NCBI RefSeq assembly: GCF_964355755.1
Contig: NC_092680.1
Span: 18,453,001-18,517,000, forward strand
DNA: 64,000 nucleotides
Direction: 5' to 3'
Origin: Antedon mediterranea
Taxonomy: Eukaryota > Echinodermata > Crinoidea > Comatulida > Antedonidae
In this document: in pieces, positions 17,501-45,388 of the stretch
Layout of the letters: the number at the start of each line of letters is the position of its first letter
Numbering within the stretch: the first letter of the stretch is position 1
Program-made: the position numbers and the translations under genes
Notes under the pieces: generated by a model
Database searches by the model: none
Told to the model about the DNA's origin: nothing
What the model saw: the letters and a program-made list of their open reading frames with translations, nothing else

Positions 17501-20500
17501 TAAATCTGCGCAAAGTTGTCCCCTTCTTACTCTGTCCAAACTTCCTTCAACTCCTTGTTCTAAATTCCTCATCTCTGCCCTCCATCGCCCTATGTCTCTT
17601 TCAAAGTCAGGTCAACACATGGTTAAAATGTAATAATAGACACATCCTATATCATCTAATGTATATTTATTTCAGGCACCGGAATCAAGCTCAATTTTGC
17701 AACAGATGATGCGACTTACACACTGTTGGATGATTTAGACAATCTTCAATACAGCTATCAAGGTATTGTAACAAAGACAGAGTGATGATTCTTGACCAGT
17801 TCATTCTGGTGTTAAGAATGCATATGCCTCACAGTACATGTATATTTGACATCAATGTTTGCTGAGGAAAAATGAGGGGCTTGTCTGAGCCATAAAAAAT
17901 CCCCCACCAATCCTACAGGCCTGATGATGTAACCAATAACAATATTATGCTTATTTTATTTTAGGCTATTCTATGGACTACATACGCATGGATGACATAG
18001 TCCGATATGTCATCGGAGCACCCCGAGCTAAAAATTTGTATGGAGCGGTACGTTTACATCTCTCTGAGAAACATCCATTTGTTTTAACACCTACTTCTCA
18101 ATGTACTGGAACAAATTTATCATAAATATAATTCATATATTCAATTCAATTTCTGCAAATGCCATCAAGGGCTAATATCTGCTTAAACATACTACATCAT
18201 ACAAACATAATATACATATTTACATTTAAAACTGTTGTTATCATTACTATAGCTATTATTATCATTATTATAGTTTGAAAAAAAATAATATCATTTTATT
18301 CAATTTATTCAGTTTATATATGTACCTTTTTTTATTATATTTATTCCGTTTATGAGATTTAATCATTTTAAATGTTGTTAAACAGGTTTATGTGTTTCCA
18401 AATTACATACGTCAATCCCCATTGCTTGAATATGAGGGAGATCAGTTTGGCGCATACTTTGGACAGAGTCTGGCAGTAGTTGACATTAATGGTGATGGGT
18501 AAGTACAGTAGTAGAGCGGTAGCTTGGTGGCTTGCTTTCCAATCCCAAGGTCCAGGGTTCAATCCTGACCTTTAGTAGTGCCAGAGTTGTAACTCACGAC
18601 TCTTTCAACTCCACTCCCTAAGCCTCAAATGAGACTTAGCATGACCAATTATAAAATAGTTTATCCATTCTGTAATTGGCGAGTTACTTGCTGTTGAATG
18701 CGTATGAAATGTTCTTTATATCTTTATCTACAAATGGATTGAACAATATATCTGTTCACATTACTCTATAAAAGTCACATACTGTAACAGTACATTTTGT
18801 GTTTTCTTACCATTTCAATTTCCACTCAAGCTTCTCCATTTTGTAAAGTACTGTATTCATGTGACAATAGTAGCAGTTATGATGTCGTTTGCTTCACACT
18901 ATAACAAGTTGTATTTTTTTTGCTTTTAGGCTTGATGATTTTATTGTTGGTGCACCATTTTATGCCAATGATAAGATATGGGAATGTGGCAGAATTTACA
19001 TTTATTTGCAGGAGCGAGGGGTAAGTTTAGATATCTCTTCGGTCAGTATATGTCCACACGTTAACACACAACAAATTACAGTGATCCTTGATAAAACAAG
19101 AAATATTTCTTACAAAAAATGCTGCTCGCTTATTGACGTAACAGTTTTAAATTATATATTATATATTTTTTATTTCAAATTTGTTTTTGAATGTGTCATT
19201 TTATTGTCACATAATAGTTTTTTTTTTTTTTGGGTTATAATTAAACGTTTCTTTTCGCTTTTTATACGTGAATAAATTTTATTTAAGTACATATGAAACA
19301 GAATAAATTTCTGTCACATTTATGTTATTGCTAAGGTCAAGTCTGGGGGTCACTTCATCAAGCATAGATACTACAAGTGTGAAGTATTTCTATTACAACA
19401 AAAATTGTAATGGACTGTTTTGATAATAATTCAATGATTATCTGACAGCAAATTACAGTATTATATATATCGATTTAGATTGACAGTCAAATGGGACTCA
19501 TTGTAAATACCAGAAATGCTTTGAGATTTGTAATTTTAGCATGACGTGTCCTATTTAACAAAAAAACAAAAACGTTGGTCTCTAGTACTATAACTGCTGC
19601 TTGCTTTCAGCTTCTGAATGAGTAGTCCTCTTGGGATGTACCTGGCTAAAGCAGCAGTGTGAAAAATGTATCATTATCAGTATAGTTGGAACAAGAGTAG
19701 TTAAATCTGTTCAGGCCTATTGCTTGCTCCTGGCCTTAATGATAACATGCTAAATAAATATTATTATAGACTATAATATAAATAGCAATAAAAAGTAAGT
19801 TAAGTTGTACATTATTTTTTTGCAATTGCATTTTATACATTATTAAGTATACTGTTTTACCAAACATTTAGAATGACTTTAGAAAACCAGTGAAGATTAC
19901 CGGTCAGAGTGTACATTCTCGTTTTGGATACGCGCTTGCTGCTCTTGATGACATAAACGCTGATGGTTATAAAGGTATCTGCATGAATATCAATTTTCAG
20001 AATGTGTATTTGAGACATTTTAAACAAGAACTATTTCTTACACAAAAACGTGGCTCGACTTTTGGGCATTACATTTTTCATTATTGTTCTTTCTTCAGAA
20101 ATAATGATTTAGGTTATGAATCCAGTAAACTCTCTCTTGTGCTGGCCTAATATGTCTTGTTTTCCAGACATTCTGATATTCACAATGTGTCTTCAATGGT
20201 TAAAAAGAAATGACCTTTTGGACCTCAAGAAAATTCTGGTATTGGGAGAGTCGACTGTACTATGTTATTATTATGAGATATTATTTCAGCTGTGTTGTTC
20301 AAATCATACCATTGATTGAAAGAACATGAAAAGTGTCCCTGTGTTAAGCTCTGTTTACATTAAAACTTTATGTGACAAAATACAAACAAATCTGATATGC
20401 CAATATATGGTAGAGATATGTCCAAATATGGTAGTGATATGTCCATATATGGTAGAGATATGTCCATATATGGTAGAGATATGTCCATATATGGTAGGGA

Positions 20501-23500
20501 TATGTCCATATATGGTAGTGATATGTCCATATATGGTAGAGATATGTCCAAATATGGTAGTGATATGTCCATATATGGGCACATTACATCTTTTTGTCAC
20601 AGTTTGATAGTGTAGACAGAGCTTTAGGGAGGCAAACAAATCAAAATCTAGCTCTTAAATAAAATTAATTTTAGGAAATACACCATTTAATTTGAAAAGT
20701 AGGAATATCATGAATTCTTGACCTAGCCATAATTTAATTTATCTAGGCCTTCATAAATGTTAGATTTAATGTAAATACCTATATATTTAGATTTTGCGGT
20801 AGGCGCTCCTTATGGTGGTGATGATGGTTCTGGTGTTGTTTACATATACCAAGGCAGTGTACAAGATATTAAGATGATTGAACCATCACAGGTTAGTTGT
20901 AGTTGAAGTGCAACTTATTCATGCAAAGCATATGCTATCAGAGCTCTGAGCTATGTGACAAAAAAAATGTGATGTTCCTATATATGGATATGATGATGTC
21001 ATATCACTACCATATTTGGGCATATCACTACCATATTTGTTCACATCACACTTTTTGTCAAACTAGTTTGATAGTGTAGACAAAGCTTTACACCAGAAGG
21101 TTGAACATAATATAAATGGTGTTTTATTTAAAAGGTATGTGGAACCTCACAGTTAACACAACAAAACAAAAATTATTATTTTCTCTAGAGGTAAAGTTAG
21201 AAATAAACCCACGCTTATGTTTGGTGATGAACAAATTGAGATTGTAGATGATTACATTTATTTAGGGACAACCTTTAATTTTAATAGCAAATTTAATAAA
21301 GCTATTGACAAGCAAGTAACACAAGCCAAAAGAGCAATGTATAGTATGTTAACAAAAGCAAAACAATTAAATCTTTTGTTAGACATTGTGTGTGAACTGT
21401 TTGACCAGCTCGTTTTGCTTGGTGGTTATGATGCTTGACTACCAATCCAAGGTTCTGGGTTCAAGTCCTGTCAGGAATTTTTGTAATGACAAAATTACAA
21501 CTCCACTCCCAAAGACATGTAATAAGACTTTGTTAATGTTTATGTAAGAGCATCTTGTGTATATGTTTATCTTTTGAACGGGCTTGCCACCTTTAAGAAG
21601 GACAGTGAATGAATTCGCTTATGGTTATCCTTGGCAATTTCATACAAATTAAACTGAAAAACTTTTTTTTTTGGTCTGTAGGTTATTACTCCAAATGATC
21701 TGGATCAAAATATGACATCATTTGGTGCTGCATTGTCTGGAGGAATTGATGTTGATGACAATGGTTATCCTGGTAATTATCATTATTGTTAAAATCATAG
21801 TTATACATGCATCTAAAACAAACAGTCACGTGATGGCATTTCGACCAATCAGTTCTAGTATTTACATAAGCTATGTAATATAATTGATTATTTTAGAGTT
21901 CTAGGATGACAATTTTTCTAGTGTAATTCTATCTATTTATCTAAATTCGTTATTATCCAAGTATAACCATTATGTGTTTATCTTTCACGTTTTATTATTA
22001 TTTTAGTTTTTTTATTTTTATTTATATTACTTATTATTTTATTATTTTTTATGTAATATCCTTATTATTTTAACTAAAAACACCTCCTTTCTCATTCTTT
22101 CTCTATCAATCAATCTTTCAGAAACACAATTTTATATATTTACTTTAGATTGAATATTTATTTTATTATTGTCGAAATTGTATACATATATATGTATATA
22201 TATATTTATTTATAGATGTAGTTGTTGGTGCATATCAATCAGACACAGCTGTTTTACTTCGGTAAGATGATTAAAGTCAGATTTTGTTTACATGATATAA
22301 TTACTTCAAATAAATAGACAACCTGTTTACATATTAATAAAAAATTATTTTAAAATAGGTTAATGATTGAAATGACCTAACGTGACCCCAGAAGTTGCCA
22401 TGGCAAGGGGTTTCCTCCCTCAAAATTGTAACAATCTGCTCCTCTTAAACCAAAGATAAATCCAAATTAACAAGCCATAAAAAAAGGATATAACAGAAAT
22501 TAACAAGATAATATTTTCACTTTCAGTTCTAGACCAGTAATTAAAATGACATCATCAGTAGAATCGGAACCAACTGGAGTCGATTTAGACATAAAAGATC
22601 TTCAACTTGAAGGAGGAACTGGGGTAACAAGGTAAAGTTATGTTTTTGTAACATTATCTTTGTTACTACGGTAACAAAGAAAGTTGTGTTGTTTAGATAA
22701 ACCATAGTAACAATATATAAACCTTTTTGTTTTTATAAAACGTTTGAGTTAAGCCTTCATACTCATAATTAAATGAAATGTGCTTATTTAAATGTTTCTT
22801 TAAAAAATAAGTATGCTTGTATAATAAATCACATTTCAAATAATCCACAATGTAACATTTTATCGTCACTTTTCTTCTTGTGTTTATAGTTTCAAGGTTA
22901 AAGGATGTCTGAGATACACAGGTATAGGCTTACTAGATACACAAGGTAAAAATCAACTTTAACTTCTTAAAAACTGTGTAACAGCTATGAGCGCTCATTG
23001 GCTAAATTCAGGTGGCCCCAGAGAAAACAACAGGCTTTAAAATATGGTCCAAATGAAGTGGGCCCTTTCTATGCTCCGAATCAGTCTCAACTTTGAATGA
23101 ATTGGAGAATCGTCCCATGTTTTATCCTACTCACTATTCACAGTGGAACATCTGCTCCATTGGTGTTGATATTAGTGGAGTTGATTTGTCAGTTTGTATA
23201 TATTAGTGGTAGTGGAGTTGATTTGTCAATTTGTATTAGTGGAGTTGATTGGTCAATTTGTATATATTAGGGGAATTAACTGGTCAATTTGTATTCATTA
23301 TTCATAAATTATCTCTTCAGAATTTACAGTAACAATGACACTTGATCCTAACCAGCCAGGCGAGTCAAGAACTGTTTTTATGGAAAACGAACTTTCTGAA
23401 ATTCAAACTTCTGTTACCTTAAATCATGGGGCAGATTATGATTGTATTGAAGAGACAGCCTATATACAGGTAGGAAAAAGTGACAAATTTGGGCTACAGC

Positions 23501-35800: not shown

Positions 35801-38800
35801 AACATCTGGTTACTTCTTCTAGAACCAACTGTGGATGAATGAAATAATAGATGCCTAGCCTTGTAACGTTTCTCAGTAGGCTTAATCATGCTTAAAATGC
35901 ATTCTTTATTTTTTTTTCATACGCATCTAACAGCGAGTACAAACTTGTCAATTACAGGATGGATAAACTATTTTATAATTTATCGTGCTTATAAACCAAG
36001 TCTCATTTGAGGCTTAGGGAGTGGAATTGAATTAAGACGTGAATTACAACCCTAGCACTAGCTCAGGATTGAACCACCAAGCTACAGCTCCACTACGTAC
36101 ACCATTTCTGGTTCGCGTACGTTGATCGCATCACATTTGTATGTAGCACAAGGGCATACAGTACTATTCACAAGAACACCAAATGCCCATTTAAAATATC
36201 TAAAGGTAATACATTTATGAAATGGTCAAATTATGTATATAGAAAACTATATGCAAGATTAGGTTCTTTACAGCTTTTCGTTATTGCCAAATACGGTGAA
36301 TGTTGTTACACTATTTTTCTATAGAAAAATGTCAATATATAGACATTTTGATTTTAAATTTTCAGATGTTTAAAAAAAAAAGTTGAAATAAGTGTGTACC
36401 TTAGTTTCAGGAGAAAGATGCTCTACACTTGTAGTAACCATAGCAACAGCTGGGGTTATTGTTTCTGTTAATGCATTAATTAATGATGCGATGTAATAAT
36501 TGTCTGAATACTATAAAAAAAAGATATTAAACATTAAAAAAATTGTTTTGTCAGAGAATCAAAACTATAATGTATACAGAAACAAATCCAGAAATTTCAT
36601 TAGGGATGTAGACATAAAAATATGCATAAATAATAAAACTAGTGTTAACAATACAGTAGAAAACCCATTAAGGGGATCCCTTTCGGGAATCAACAAAGTG
36701 TACCTTTAAAGAGTGTTCCCTGAATAGAGGTTGGTCATGGTCACTAAACATATATTGCCCCAATTTTTGGTGCATAGGAAATTGTTGTTTCATGAATAGA
36801 GGAGAATTGAATAACTTGTGTTTAATAGGTAGGATAAACAAAAATGGCAGATTAGAACAATGGGGTAGGGGGTGGAAGAGGGTAGGGGGTGGAAGAGGGT
36901 AGGGGGTGGAAGAGGGTAGGGGGGTGGAAGAGGGTAAGGGTGGTGGCGTGAGAGAGATATTTAATAATACTTACTCTGTTTGTCCTGTTGTCATTGTACT
37001 TAATAAGATCTGTGAGAAAACTAAGCGTTTCTTTTGGGCATACACGATGGGAATCCCGTATGTAGGCTAATGACATCGGTAAAGCCTGCAAAAAAGCAGT
37101 AAAACTGAATGTCTTTACAAAGTTGCTTAATCTATAATATTTTATTACGTACATTTTGTTTATATTTAAGCTGGATGTTGGTTCTCACAAAAATGTCGGA
37201 ATAAGAATAAATTTAATTGATGAAGAGAAAAACAAATTAATTACTAATACTAAATACATTGATCTTACCTTTTGTAAGAAATAGTCTTGAAAATTTGAGA
37301 AATCATTTTGTTTGACAATCCGCCTGCAATTATAGGCTCCGAAAAGGTCATAGAATATTTCCATAAGTGCTGAGCTACCATTGAATGATGCAAACAGCTC
37401 ATTGGCTACCTGAATAACAGAAGTTGGGGCAAAACATGGTTAATTGAAGTAAGTATTTATATGCCATGATCAAATATCTAGTATATTATACAATTTGGCA
37501 ACACATTTGATTATTTTGTAAACCCGTCAGCCATTGTACCAAATTCATACAGTTTTTGAACCGCAAGAAATAATTGTTTTCCCCGAAAAACCCAATTATT
37601 GTTCGAGTGAGTGGACGAGCAGGTTAGACAGTGGAACCGTATTACATAGACATAACATCAGCAGGGGGTTCGAGGCTCACTCACTCCATGGTTCTTGTGG
37701 TAGACTACAGTATAAACTGTAGGTCCAGTGTACACATCTGGGTTATGTGCACTTTAAAGAACCCAGTATATCTTTTGAGATGAGTAGGAGCTTAGCCCGT
37801 GTACTAGTTCACACACAGCCACTGTCACAAACTCATCATAGTACAATACACAGGGCGCTCTGGGAGAACAGTTATTGACTGAAGAGGCCACCCAGAATAA
37901 ATAATAATAATAATAATAATCCATAAGCTTGCCTTTGACAATTCCTCAGCAGCCTTCACTCTAACCTTGTAAAAGGCTGTCTTATCTTTGATCATACCTC
38001 CCAATGTCTGAATAGTCTCCGTACTTGGGAATTGCCGTAGAGCTTTGATGGCCTACATAATAAAAATTGAATGGATACATAAGAAACAGAAATTTAATAT
38101 TGCTGTCATCATATATTTAACAGGTTTTTGTCATATCACCAAAAGTTAAGCAGTGTTTGGCCCAGTATTGGATGGAAGGCCATCTGGGAATATCAGAAGC
38201 TGTACGATGTTGAACTGCATCCACGAAGGCTGTGTGGGAATTAGTCAGTCCCAGGCTAACATCTTATAATATACATACGTTAAATATGTAGTCAAAGGCT
38301 GTTGTGCAGACGTATGAGAGAATGGCGTCCCAGTGAATTATTAGTCTATACATATTTCTGACATAAAAGAAGAATACAGACTAGTTAAAAAAAAAATAGA
38401 TAGGGCATATAGTACCACTGCACCATGATACAACTTAGTTACAGAATTCTACTATAGACAAGTACAGAACAAACCTCTAACTGTGCAGCAATATCTCTTT
38501 CAAATTTTAGTTGGTACTGCCATTGAAAATCAGGCTGGTCAAAGGTCACCTGACGCAGTAAGGTCATCTCAGTGTCGATCCTGATCCATAGTACAGGTGA
38601 ATCAGCACTGTCAGAAGATAAAGATAATATACATTATTAGGTAAAAAGAACATTTCAGCTGTAACGTTTGACTCAATTAGGATTTTCTACAATTGTTAAA
38701 AATAATGATTTCACTTATAAAAAAAAACAAAAAAAATATTTTTTGAGAGGGCAATATATTGTTTATGTTTGACTTACTCCATTGCACCTAAATCCATGTC

Positions 38801-41800: not shown

Positions 41801-44800
41801 GTTATGTGATATCATCATGTCCATATATGGGCACATGGTAGTGATATGCCCAAATATGGTATATGGGCACATCACATTTTTTTGTCACCTAAATAATGAA
41901 GACAGAGTTTAACAAACTGAATCGAATTCAATTGCTCTGGTCATCATGTATTTGACACAAAAGCAGTATTCTCAATGCATACCACATATGTACCACAAAG
42001 TTAAAAACACATAACAAGCTAAATTGACTGTAAACAAGTGCTTACTTCATGAATGAAGTCTGTGGAATGCTCAAGTATTGGTTTGAGTTGAGGCAGGCAG
42101 AAGTGGGTCACCTCAGGCATATATGGATCAACCAGTATCTCAAAAGGTCTAGAAAAAAAGTTATTGGAAACAATTTGGCTGACATGTGGTACAAGATCAA
42201 ATCACTGGGTCACCCAGTAACCAAAGCTTCCAATAAATAAACTAACAATAATATGCAATTGCTAACAGCCATGACTTATTTAGTTTTGTGCACTTTGGTG
42301 GAAAAACATGAAGAAGAAAAAAATTAAATTACCCAACAGCAACTGCTATGTTTGGTGCTGCAGTCGGTATGGTCAATATATAATGAAATGTTTTCTTGCG
42401 CATGTCTGGTGTGTAAACCGTTTCATACAAATCACCGCAGGATACTGCCACCATCGAAGCATCAACTGTGAATTCGAGTTTCCAAGTGCAGGGTTCGGAG
42501 TAGGAATCGATGCACGGAAACCAGAGACGTGATGAATGTTCATAAGCGTATGTGAACAGATGGGCTCCACGCTGAAAAAATTATTCATTCATCAGTGGAA
42601 AATTACTTCCATTTATTGTAATTTGCATATAAAATATACATAGAAATTATGTTTGCTTTGAGATATACAAAAACAGATAAATGAAAAACTAACAAAAATA
42701 ATTACAAAGTTTCACATCACTCTCATACAGTATACTGACAAGCATTCAGTGCCCGAATGGTAGTTGGATAAAAATGCTAACAATCATATTGAAATAAAAT
42801 ACAAATAAATACACTTACTTCTTCCATGGTGCCATCCGTTTCTGGTACCACAAAATGAAGACCACCTTGAGGTCGTTCAAGCGAAAACTCAATGCTAACA
42901 CGCAGAGGTTTTTGTTCTACAAATTAAGAAAATGCAGATTTTAAAAATGTATGCATACCAATTTCTGAGCAAAGAAAACACTTAAAATATAAAATCATAT
43001 TACAAATGATTAAAATTAGAAAATTAATTCCAATATGTGGTCATTTGAATTATCCCCATAAAATTTGCTTTATTGAGAGAAAACAAATCGGCAGGATTTG
43101 AACCCTGCTCATGGCATTTGAAGACAAGTACCTAACCATCAAACCGTAATTTAAAACTCATACAAACCTGATAGAAGGTGAGAAGCACTGTGTGGTATCT
43201 TGATCGTCAACTCGCCATTATTCTTGTCCGTGTCAACTGAACTCACAGCATCATAATGGCATCCAGAAAAGAAGTTTAAATTACGTCTGTAAATAAGAAT
43301 AAAAGAAGTTTAATTTTCCGAAAAGAAGTGTGATGTGCTCAAATATGGTAGCGATATTCCCAAATATGGTAGTGATATGACATCATCATGTCCATATATG
43401 GGCACATCACATTTTTTTGGTCACATAAAGTTTGATAGTGTAGACAAGGTTTTACTGGTTGTGCATTTTTTCGCATCCCAGGAAAAAATAGACTATGCAT
43501 AGTACTAATTGCTGAAAAAAACAAAAACACAAGGAACTGGAATTTGGTACAGAAAGTGATCTGGATAAAAAAATCATGGAATTTCTCCAGCCACCACACA
43601 TTGTGAAGCATAGCTTTAGACATTTTTTATATTATTTACATACTTAAACTTACTGTCTTGAGTCTGACTGACAAATCTCTAATGTTGGATCATTGTACAT
43701 AAATGATGCTTCCCAATAATCATTTATGCATACTCTATAAACACCTATTGACTACGGTTAAGGATCCAAACAAAATAATACATTAAAACAAACCACAAGT
43801 CAAAACCCGACTAAGAAATACCGGAATGGTGTCCGGCGGGGGATAGTTTATTACCATTAGTTAAGGTCCTATGTAAAGCACCTAGAGGGGTCAGTGATCC
43901 ATTAGGCGCTATATAAATACTGTTTATTACCTCCGCCAAGGAGGTTATGTTTTCACCCCTGTGTGTTTGTGTGTGTGTTTGTGTGTGTGTTTGTGAACAG
44001 CCTGGAGGCCACAGTTTTTATCCGATTCTAACCAAATTTGGACACAATGATCTATGCCCAAAAAGCTCGGACGAGTTCGAATTTGAGGGGGAAAGGTCAT
44101 AGGTCAAGGTCACAACTAACAAAAAACTATTTTACTGCCTAGAGACCACAGTTTTGATCCGATTCTCACCAAACTTAGCCACAATGATCAATGACACATC
44201 ATATAATTGTGGTTAAATTTTGAAGGGTCAGGGTCAAAGATCAAGGTCCACAAAAAACAAACAAAAAAGAAATAAAAAAATAATAAAAAAAAAAAAAACC
44301 CTCAGTGGGGCTTGAACCAACGATCTCAACTGTGAGAGGCTGGATACATAACCATTACACCACACTGTCATCCACAACTTTGTAGTGTGCAGTTAACATA
44401 TTTAGACTTAGACCTAATAAAAAAAAATGTTTAAAAAAAAATATTCAGGGGGCATTTTATGTAGGGGAATTTTACAGTAGGCGGAGGTTTGTACTCTCGG
44501 AGTACCCTCTAGTTATTATTCTTAACAAAGTTTTTTATTTACAACTTTATAAGTCAAAGGATACGACATTGTTTACTGTTGATTTTAATCTTGTTCAGAC
44601 CAGGTTTTAGCGGAACTATATGTAGCTCTGTATATCCCTGAAAAAAATATATACTTGTAAAAAATTTTTCTTTTCATTTCATGTAATTTTCATTCAAGTA
44701 ATAATTAACAATTTCAATACAAAGTCAAAGTTAACAAAAGCAAGACCAAAACAGTATTGTGAGTAACTAATTATATGTAAAAATAATTATCTCATTTAAA

Positions 44801-45388
44801 TAAAGAATGTAAAAAAATAACTTACTATTATTGATTTCCTCTGAAAGTTGAAACCAGTCACACACAAAATCTGGTGACTTGTGCAGATAAAAAACAAAAG
44901 AATTTGAATATAGGCATATATATATTTAAATTGATTAAAATATTGAAAATAAAACTGCAATTCTGTACAGTCCACTGATTCATATTAGAATATGAAATGA
45001 AGATTACAATAAATTAATAAATTAATTATCGCTGGCGTTTAATTATTATAAATAATTTATAAATTAAAGTGCTGACGGTTAAATCATATTATCAAAACAA
45101 ACAGAAAATCATATAGGACTATATGACTTTTATATAAGAATTAGAATATAATGTCTAACATAGGCCGTGGCTAGCCTAGGCCTACAATACCCAATTAGAT
45201 TCATTCTCACGCGGACATACCCCCCTGTTTCAACAATTTACTGCAGCTGTATTTTATCAACATGTAGGCCTAGCTTATTTGTTACCGAAATTCTACAATA
45301 AATGCAATATTATACACAAAAAAATAACTTATAATCTAAAATCTCTTGGAGAATCAAATCTATCAAATTTCTTGCTACTTTTCGACAT
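32711..45388 (-). CDS. TFIID subunit TAF2, 27 coding exons, 1178 aa
   Basis: Exons in transcript order: 45333-45388, 44826-44880, 44565-44637, 43654-43744, 43168-43286, 42819-42916, 42333-42571, 42046-42148, 41535-41653, 41091-41304, 40558-40776, 40310-40405, 39926-40102, 39202-39311, 38778-38843, 38475-38607, 37933-38052, 37269-37409, 36975-37085, 36400-36510, 35612-35828, 35086-35167, 34761-34865, 34081-34264, 33758-33883, 33305-33491, 32711-32895. The total is 3537 nt. TAF2 helps TFIID bind initiator DNA. The N-terminal half is an M1-aminopeptidase fold: signature stretches are [43 protein letters not shown] and [10 protein letters not shown]. The zinc-binding HExxH helix is replaced by ALAEQ within TQALAEQFF (about 338-346), so it is catalytically dead, as in other TAF2. 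HEAT-like helices follow ([18 protein letters not shown]), then a Lys/His-rich tail. Length is close to human (about 1199). Two introns are noncanonical (AT-AC and GC-AG). Confidence 0.95.
32941..33190. repeat. About 45-bp minisatellite in last TAF2 intron
   Basis: Five to six units contain ccttccatacctgtggagta then 'cacttggatagttttgc'. The array ends 46 bp upstream (transcript sense) of the terminal-exon acceptor. It generates open frames in several minus-strand phases that could be mispredicted as exon extensions. Confidence 0.85.
35930..36100 (-). mobile_element. tRNA-derived SINE (minus orientation)
   Basis: Read on the minus strand, it has the 'gtagtggagctgtagcttgg' head, the B-box-like 'ggttcaatcctgagct', and the body 'ccactccctaagcctcaaat'. 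It is the same family as 18511. It lies in TAF2 intron 20. Confidence 0.6.
36655..36830. repeat. Dispersed 'cccattaagggg' repeat copy
   Basis: It contains 'aaaacccattaaggggatcc', 'gtgttccctgaatagagg' and 'ttgaataacttgtgtttaat'. It belongs to the same family as 1962 and 60585. It lies in a TAF2 intron. Confidence 0.55.
36862..36945. repeat. 17-bp G-rich tandem repeat
   Basis: About five copies of 'gggtggaagagggtagg' lie in TAF2 intron 19. They are about 30 bp from the exon 19 donor. Confidence 0.85.
37612..37920 (+). mobile_element. Full-length tRNA-Leu-type SINE with (AAT)n tail
   Basis: The head reads gagtgagtggacgagcaggt and the B-box-like sequence is 'gggttcgaggctc'. The body contains 'ggtccagtgtacacatctgg', 'gtgcactttaaagaaccc' and 'tgaagaggccaccca'. 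The tail is (aat)n ending at about 37920. It is inserted antisense in TAF2 intron 17. Its tail lies about 12 bp from the noncanonical GC donor of exon 17. Confidence 0.8.
38132..38215 (+). repeat. 5S rRNA-derived repeat (SINE3-like) or 5S pseudogene
   Basis: The segment reads aaaagttaagcagtg, then ggatggaaggccatctggga and 'atatcagaagctgta'. This follows the 3' half of 5S rRNA: A-box AAGCTAAGCAGGG and C-box GGATGGGAGACCGCCTGGGAATACC...GTGCTGTA. Several substitutions rule out a functional gene. It lies in TAF2 intron 16. Confidence 0.75.
40438..40516. mobile_element. Palindromic MITE, copy 5, minimal deletion form
   Basis: This 79-bp element is made almost only of terminal repeats: agccttgtctatactatcaa at left and gatagtatagaaagagct at right. 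Two 'aaacttaacataaagtttga' hairpins lie between. It occupies half of the 152-bp TAF2 intron between exons 11 and 12. Confidence 0.8.
41719..41909. mobile_element. Palindromic MITE, copy 6
   Basis: The ends are ggctctgtctacactatc and 'gaagacagagtt', next to TTA on the left. The core has 'caaatatggcagtgatatgc' type units. It lies in TAF2 intron 8. Confidence 0.75.
43085..43150 (-). repeat. tRNA-like SINE head
   Basis: On the minus strand it reads 'ggtttgatggttaggtactt', followed by the B box 'gggttcaaatcctgcc'. No body was recognised. It lies in TAF2 intron 5. Confidence 0.45.
43325..43450. mobile_element. Palindromic MITE, copy 7 (left end truncated)
   Basis: The right end 'aaagtttgatagtgtagaca' is intact and is followed by TTTTA. 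The left terminal repeat is gone. The core contains 'aaatatggtagtgatatgac'. It lies in TAF2 intron 4. Confidence 0.75.
43930..44514. mobile_element. 'cctccgcc...ggcggagg' transposable element
   Basis: The element begins cctccgccaaggaggttatg and ends gtaggcggaggtttgtactc then 'tcggagtaccctctag'. The short inverted ends are cctccgcc and ggcggagg. It contains (tgtgtgtt)n, two related 'cagtttttatccgattct' blocks and a tRNA-like minus-strand segment at about 44310-44385 (B box 'ggttcaagccccac'). Similar sequences are widespread in marine animals. It is a non-autonomous element in TAF2 intron 3. Confidence 0.65.
45333..45388 (-). CDS. TAF2 exon 1 (start codon)
   Basis: It encodes [18 protein letters not shown] plus two bases of a Leu codon. 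The FDSPR...L|SHQ order matches the FESPRPYKLTHQ start of human TAF2, so this ATG is the likely start. The exon can only be joined in frame to exon 2 through an AT-AC intron. The next GT lies after an in-frame TAA. Confidence 0.75.

Follow-up and report, generated by a model that had tools for sequence, protein, structure and literature searches.

AT-AC introns of the U2-type class are rare, accounting for 0.01% of human U2-type introns (PMC7367187, Table 2). As characterized in the text of Lin et al. (2010, PMC2831892), they carry G at +5 together with A at +4 or T at +6. One case is intron 21 of SCN4A, from the sodium channel genes, whose removal was demonstrated to depend on the major spliceosome (PMC2831892). 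The case closest to the present one comes from human HeLa cells, in which TAF2 intron 1 was listed as a major (U2-type) AT-AC intron and tested by RT-PCR (PMC8280824, Figure 5E legend). According to the text of the same study, no major AT-AC intron that was tested responded to the loss of CENATAC. U12-type AT-AC introns have the same terminal dinucleotides, with a reported consensus of ATATCC and CCTTAAC (PMC3033335).

We analysed a stretch of 64,000 nucleotides from the crinoid Antedon mediterranea (contig NC_092680.1, positions 18,453,001 to 18,517,000), here called the window, in which all positions are counted from its first letter. TAF2 lies on the minus strand. Its first 23 exons were modelled, giving 951 codons without stops; the positions of exons 17 and 18 were set by visual inspection, and the exons further 3' are known as open frames only. 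Residues 1-589, encoded by exons 1-14, matched the TFIID subunit 2 chain, which is found in 30ff and in 28 further entries, with an E value of 7.6e-248. We take this chain to be the human protein.

Among the 22 introns modelled, 19 were GT-AG introns without U12 donor signals. The remaining three were intron 17 (37410-37932, minus strand), which is a GC-AG intron with GCAAGC following an exon end of AAG, intron 3 (43745-44564, minus strand, 820 nt), a U12-type GT-AG intron with the donor GTATCCTTTG, and intron 1, with AT-AC ends. From its sequence, the gene appears to hold four kinds of intron: U2 GT-AG, U2 GC-AG, U12 GT-AG and AT-AC.

The coding part of exon 1 runs from the ATG at 45388 down to 45333 (56 nt, minus strand) and ends in phase 2, after 18 residues and two bases of a Leu codon. 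Exon 2 occupies 44880 to 44826 (55 nt, minus strand) and begins with AAGTCACCAG at 44880. Between them lies intron 1 (45332-44881, minus strand, 452 nt), which reads ATAAGTTATT...ATCTGCAC and has U2-type signals. Its donor, ATAAGT (45332-45327), differs from GTAAGT at +1 only, and its 3' end, CTTTTGTTTTTTATCTGCAC (44900-44881), is rich in pyrimidines and terminates in AC. Direct reading confirmed the coordinates and the letters given for this intron in the original prediction. Within the window, ATAAGT has a frequency of 3.67e-4 and AC of 0.0562, so that both would occur at one fixed junction with a frequency of ~2e-5. Introns 1 and 2 (from 45332 and from 44825 downwards, minus strand) have donors that are alike: the 14 bases after the first, TAAGTTATTTTTTT, are common to both, and over 15 bases only +1 differs (A vs G). 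This likeness is perhaps due to chance in AT-rich introns.

The AT-AC join links the exon 1 end TTAGATT to AAGTCACC. Its product aligned without gaps to the TFIID subunit 2 chain, from FDSPRDFRL through FNFQRKS; the stretch of that chain across the junction is FESPRPYKLTHQVVC. The Taf2 chain of 6hqa has NFKIAHQ with the same spacing across the junction, in a weakly scoring stretch (9.4 bits). Read-through past exon 1 gives TTA and then an in-frame TAA formed by intron bases 2-4, and exon 1 must therefore end before this TAA. All frame-keeping, stop-free pairs of donor and acceptor (n=2,846) were scored, regardless of their dinucleotides, by similarity to the N-terminal part of the TFIID subunit 2 chain. 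The AT-AC junction had the joint top score of 103. The only pair to equal it has TA-CA ends and yields an identical protein, so the two readings are indistinguishable by protein.

Exon 1 itself was recognizable as part of TAF2. Compared with FESPRPYKL, its FDSPRDFRL segment scored 32, the highest among the 70,192 stop-free nine-residue stretches that the window holds in its six frames, with the next at 24. Random peptides with the composition of exon 1 reached this score once in 200,000. Exon 1 is therefore coding sequence. At the junction fixed by homology the first two bases of the intron are AT and the last two AC, with TA-CA equal by protein, and at the level of the genomic sequence the AT-AC observation was confirmed as real. 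A processed copy displaying the junction was sought in the genome by searching for the AT-AC product with up to three mismatches, and gave no matches; exon 1 with its flanking sequence matched the genome once, at the window's own place, so no second copy was found.

The signals inside intron 1 are those of the U2 class. The donor has A at +4, G at +5 and T at +6, that is, the U2-like pattern described in the text of PMC2831892, in which G at +5 is accompanied by A at +4, T at +6 or both, and it is without the U12 signature TCCTT at +4 to +8. For the U12 comparisons we used donor and branch consensus strings that agree with those given in the text of PMC3033335. The donor of intron 1 shared 5 of 9 positions with the U12 consensus, compared with 2 to 6 for the other 20 non-U12 introns of TAF2. 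Intron 3 served as the yardstick for U12 signals: its donor, GTATCCTTT, matched at 9 of 9 positions and its branch site, ATCCTTAAC (43765-43757), at 8 of 9, with 13 nt from the branch A to the intron end. The best branch-like match in intron 1 was 6/9, 28 nt from the end, although the branch score alone separates the classes poorly (intron 5 reaches 8/9, at 7 nt). Intron 1 was thus found to have neither a U12 donor nor a U12 branch site near its 3' end, and the U12-type AT-AC combination of a ATATCCTT donor with a CCTTAAC-like branch close to the 3' end was not present in it. In the open-licence literature we found no mention of TAF2 intron 3 as a minor intron.

Minor snRNAs were detected in the genome, namely U12 (125.7 bits), U4atac (97.6 bits) and U6atac (136.6 bits); a second U6atac match, at 33.7 bits, was barely above the cut-off of 33. 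A U12 intron would therefore have its machinery in this animal and should resemble intron 3. The U2-type reading of intron 1 is sound because its donor is without the U12 signature, intron 3 shows textbook U12 features, and the genome contains U12, U4atac and U6atac. The assignment of the intron to the major rather than the U12 class, made in the original prediction, was supported by positions +4 to +6 of the donor, by the U12 scores and by the independent report on human TAF2 intron 1, to which that prediction did not refer.

Antedon and human TAF2 intron 1 are alike in gene, in being the first intron, in their AT-AC termini and in U2 class, whereas splicing of the human intron was seen by RT-PCR and the Antedon intron is known from sequence. 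On the basis of gene, ordinal number and class, the Antedon intron is most likely orthologous to the human one, and the two would then occupy the same position. SCN4A intron 21 shares with it the AT-AC termini, G at +5 and U2-type signals, but belongs to another gene, and the dependence on the major spliceosome that is described for SCN4A in the text of PMC2831892 would be a prediction for Antedon TAF2. With the U12-type AT-AC introns described in the text of PMC3033335, the Antedon intron has the terminal dinucleotides in common; their ATATCC and CCTTAAC consensus is not matched. TAF2 intron 1 therefore belongs to a rare kind that is already known, and for which a counterpart in human has been reported, and does not represent a new kind. 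PMC8280824 was the only article found to combine TAF2 with AT-AC introns in the open-licence literature, supplements aside, and within that scope no report of TAF2 intron 1 outside human was found. TAF2 is not named in the available text of PMC4176328 or PMC6717393. A supplementary list that already holds TAF2 intron 1 in other animals may exist.

We consider it very probable that the major (U2) spliceosome removes TAF2 intron 1 as an AT-AC intron, and that this intron is orthologous to intron 1 of human TAF2. Against this, the end of exon 1 is ATT, without the usual AG, and an AT-AG junction three bases downstream is also in frame, with a score of 87 vs 103. The latter junction would join ATAAGT to the acceptor AAG (44880-44878, minus strand), and its product, RDFRFHQILC, could be either the main one or an alternative. 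It was the best of 14 AT-AG pairs, and AG acceptors are the norm, being found in 21 of the 22 TAF2 introns modelled. Nevertheless, it is one residue short at a place that reads KLTHQ in the TFIID subunit 2 chain and KIAHQ in the 6hqa Taf2 chain (the latter in the weak stretch of 9.4 bits), the text of PMC8280824 classes the human counterpart as AT-AC, and intermediates such as AT-AG are said to splice poorly, in a review passage on U12 introns (PMC3584512). We regard AT-AG splicing as unlikely. A conventional junction within exon 1 would use a donor at 45378 or 45375 and an AG upstream of 44880. The original prediction rightly placed an in-frame TAA past the end of exon 1, but its statement that no GT-AG pair keeps the frame did not hold, as two such pairs (donor 45378) do so, together with two GC-AG pairs (donor 45375), each with a score of 67. 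The statement was wrong in letter, not in effect: all four delete FDSPRDFRL, which is too TAF2-like for chance, and insert a hydrophobic stretch that is not homologous to the TFIID subunit 2 chain. Alternatively, the donor could reflect a base error or a private mutation, given that a single assembly was available and exon 1 has no second copy for comparison; yet a one-base error would leave both the AC at the other end and the human AT-AC counterpart unexplained. Taken together, splicing within exon 1 and a donor error or mutation are very unlikely.

The remaining alternative keeps the AT-AC ends and assigns the intron to the minor spliceosome, as a U12-type intron with a decayed donor. Most AT-AC introns are recognized by the U12 spliceosome, as stated in the text of PMC7072748, and both a U12 intron in TAF2 and the minor snRNAs in the genome fit with this. 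Against it are the donor without TCCTT at +4 to +8 and the branch-like site of just 6/9 lying 28 nt from the end, as well as the classification of human TAF2 intron 1 as major, in a study whose text has the tested major AT-AC introns unresponsive to CENATAC loss (PMC8280824). Removal by the minor spliceosome is extremely improbable.

If TAF2 intron 1 is removed by the major spliceosome, its donor would be recognized by U1 and U6 through +2 to +6 (UAAGU), and its 3' end would be defined by a U2-class branch site and the pyrimidine tract. The A at +1 and the terminal C would act as a compensating pair in place of G...G. Under the model of Lin et al. (2010), as set out in the text of PMC2831892, a change at either end alone would break splicing once both ends are non-canonical, and the intron would therefore be trapped. 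For Antedon TAF2 intron 1, use in RNA, spliceosome class, a position identical to that of the human intron and the trap are all predictions.

The interest of this intron lies in the depth of conservation of its AT-AC ends. These odd ends would be very old, because human TAF2 intron 1 is reported as the same rare kind, and probably date back to the ancestor shared by the Antedon and human lineages. Tektin exons of the genome scored highest against a chain of PDB entry 8snb, from sea urchin sperm, with 290.4 vs 155.8 bits for the next chain in one comparison and 182.4 vs 138.9 in another; no protostome chain was recognized among the comparators, and the scores agree with an echinoderm or ambulacrarian placement. 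On balance, we favour a trapped U2-type AT-AC intron whose doubly non-canonical ends have been kept since at least the ambulacrarian/chordate ancestor, and which may have originated as a U12 AT-AC intron. In the proposal of Lin et al., U2-type AT-AC introns derive from U12 AT-AC introns and became trapped as both ends must change together (PMC2831892). TAF2 intron 1 may have followed this rare route, from an AT-AC U12 to an AT-AC U2 intron; the gene retains a U12 intron, intron 3, two introns further downstream. Persistence of the ends is likelier than a U12 origin, because all 87 U2-type introns involved in U12DB conversions have GT-AG ends, according to the text of PMC2831892, and we infer a U12 origin of TAF2 intron 1 only in this tentative sense. 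TAF2 is a natural place to test the idea of a U12 origin and a trap, given its U12 intron 3, two introns on from intron 1, and an exon 1 that does not end in the usual AG. If the human and ambulacrarian introns are truly an orthologous pair, they would provide a clean test of the evolutionary trap presented in the text of PMC2831892, from which there is no one-base-at-a-time return to GT-AG. They also carry a warning for annotation, in that a gene finder restricted to GT-AG introns would miss or misplace exon 1 of the gene for TAF2, a subunit of TFIID.

As controls, the genome was also searched for other genes known to have AT-AC introns. A back-translated sodium-channel motif gave no matches. 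With a 69-residue sodium-channel III-IV linker as query, one weak match was obtained (C7:9987400-9987537, 43% identity, E 4.3e-4), and no ordinary sodium-channel linker was found in the genome with this query; judged by its sequence, the match comes from a diverged voltage-gated channel and is not clearly a sodium channel. With the SYCP2 model PF18581 there were no matches in the genome and none in the control genomes either, so the model may miss such genes. The sodium-channel and SYCP2 searches neither help nor hurt the AT-AC reading, and absence of these genes is not implied. Elsewhere in the window, at 20360-20660 (minus strand), open frames made of short-unit tandem repeats encode GHITTIYGHI-like peptides in three frames. 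By its sequence pattern, this region is a simple tandem array, not a gene.
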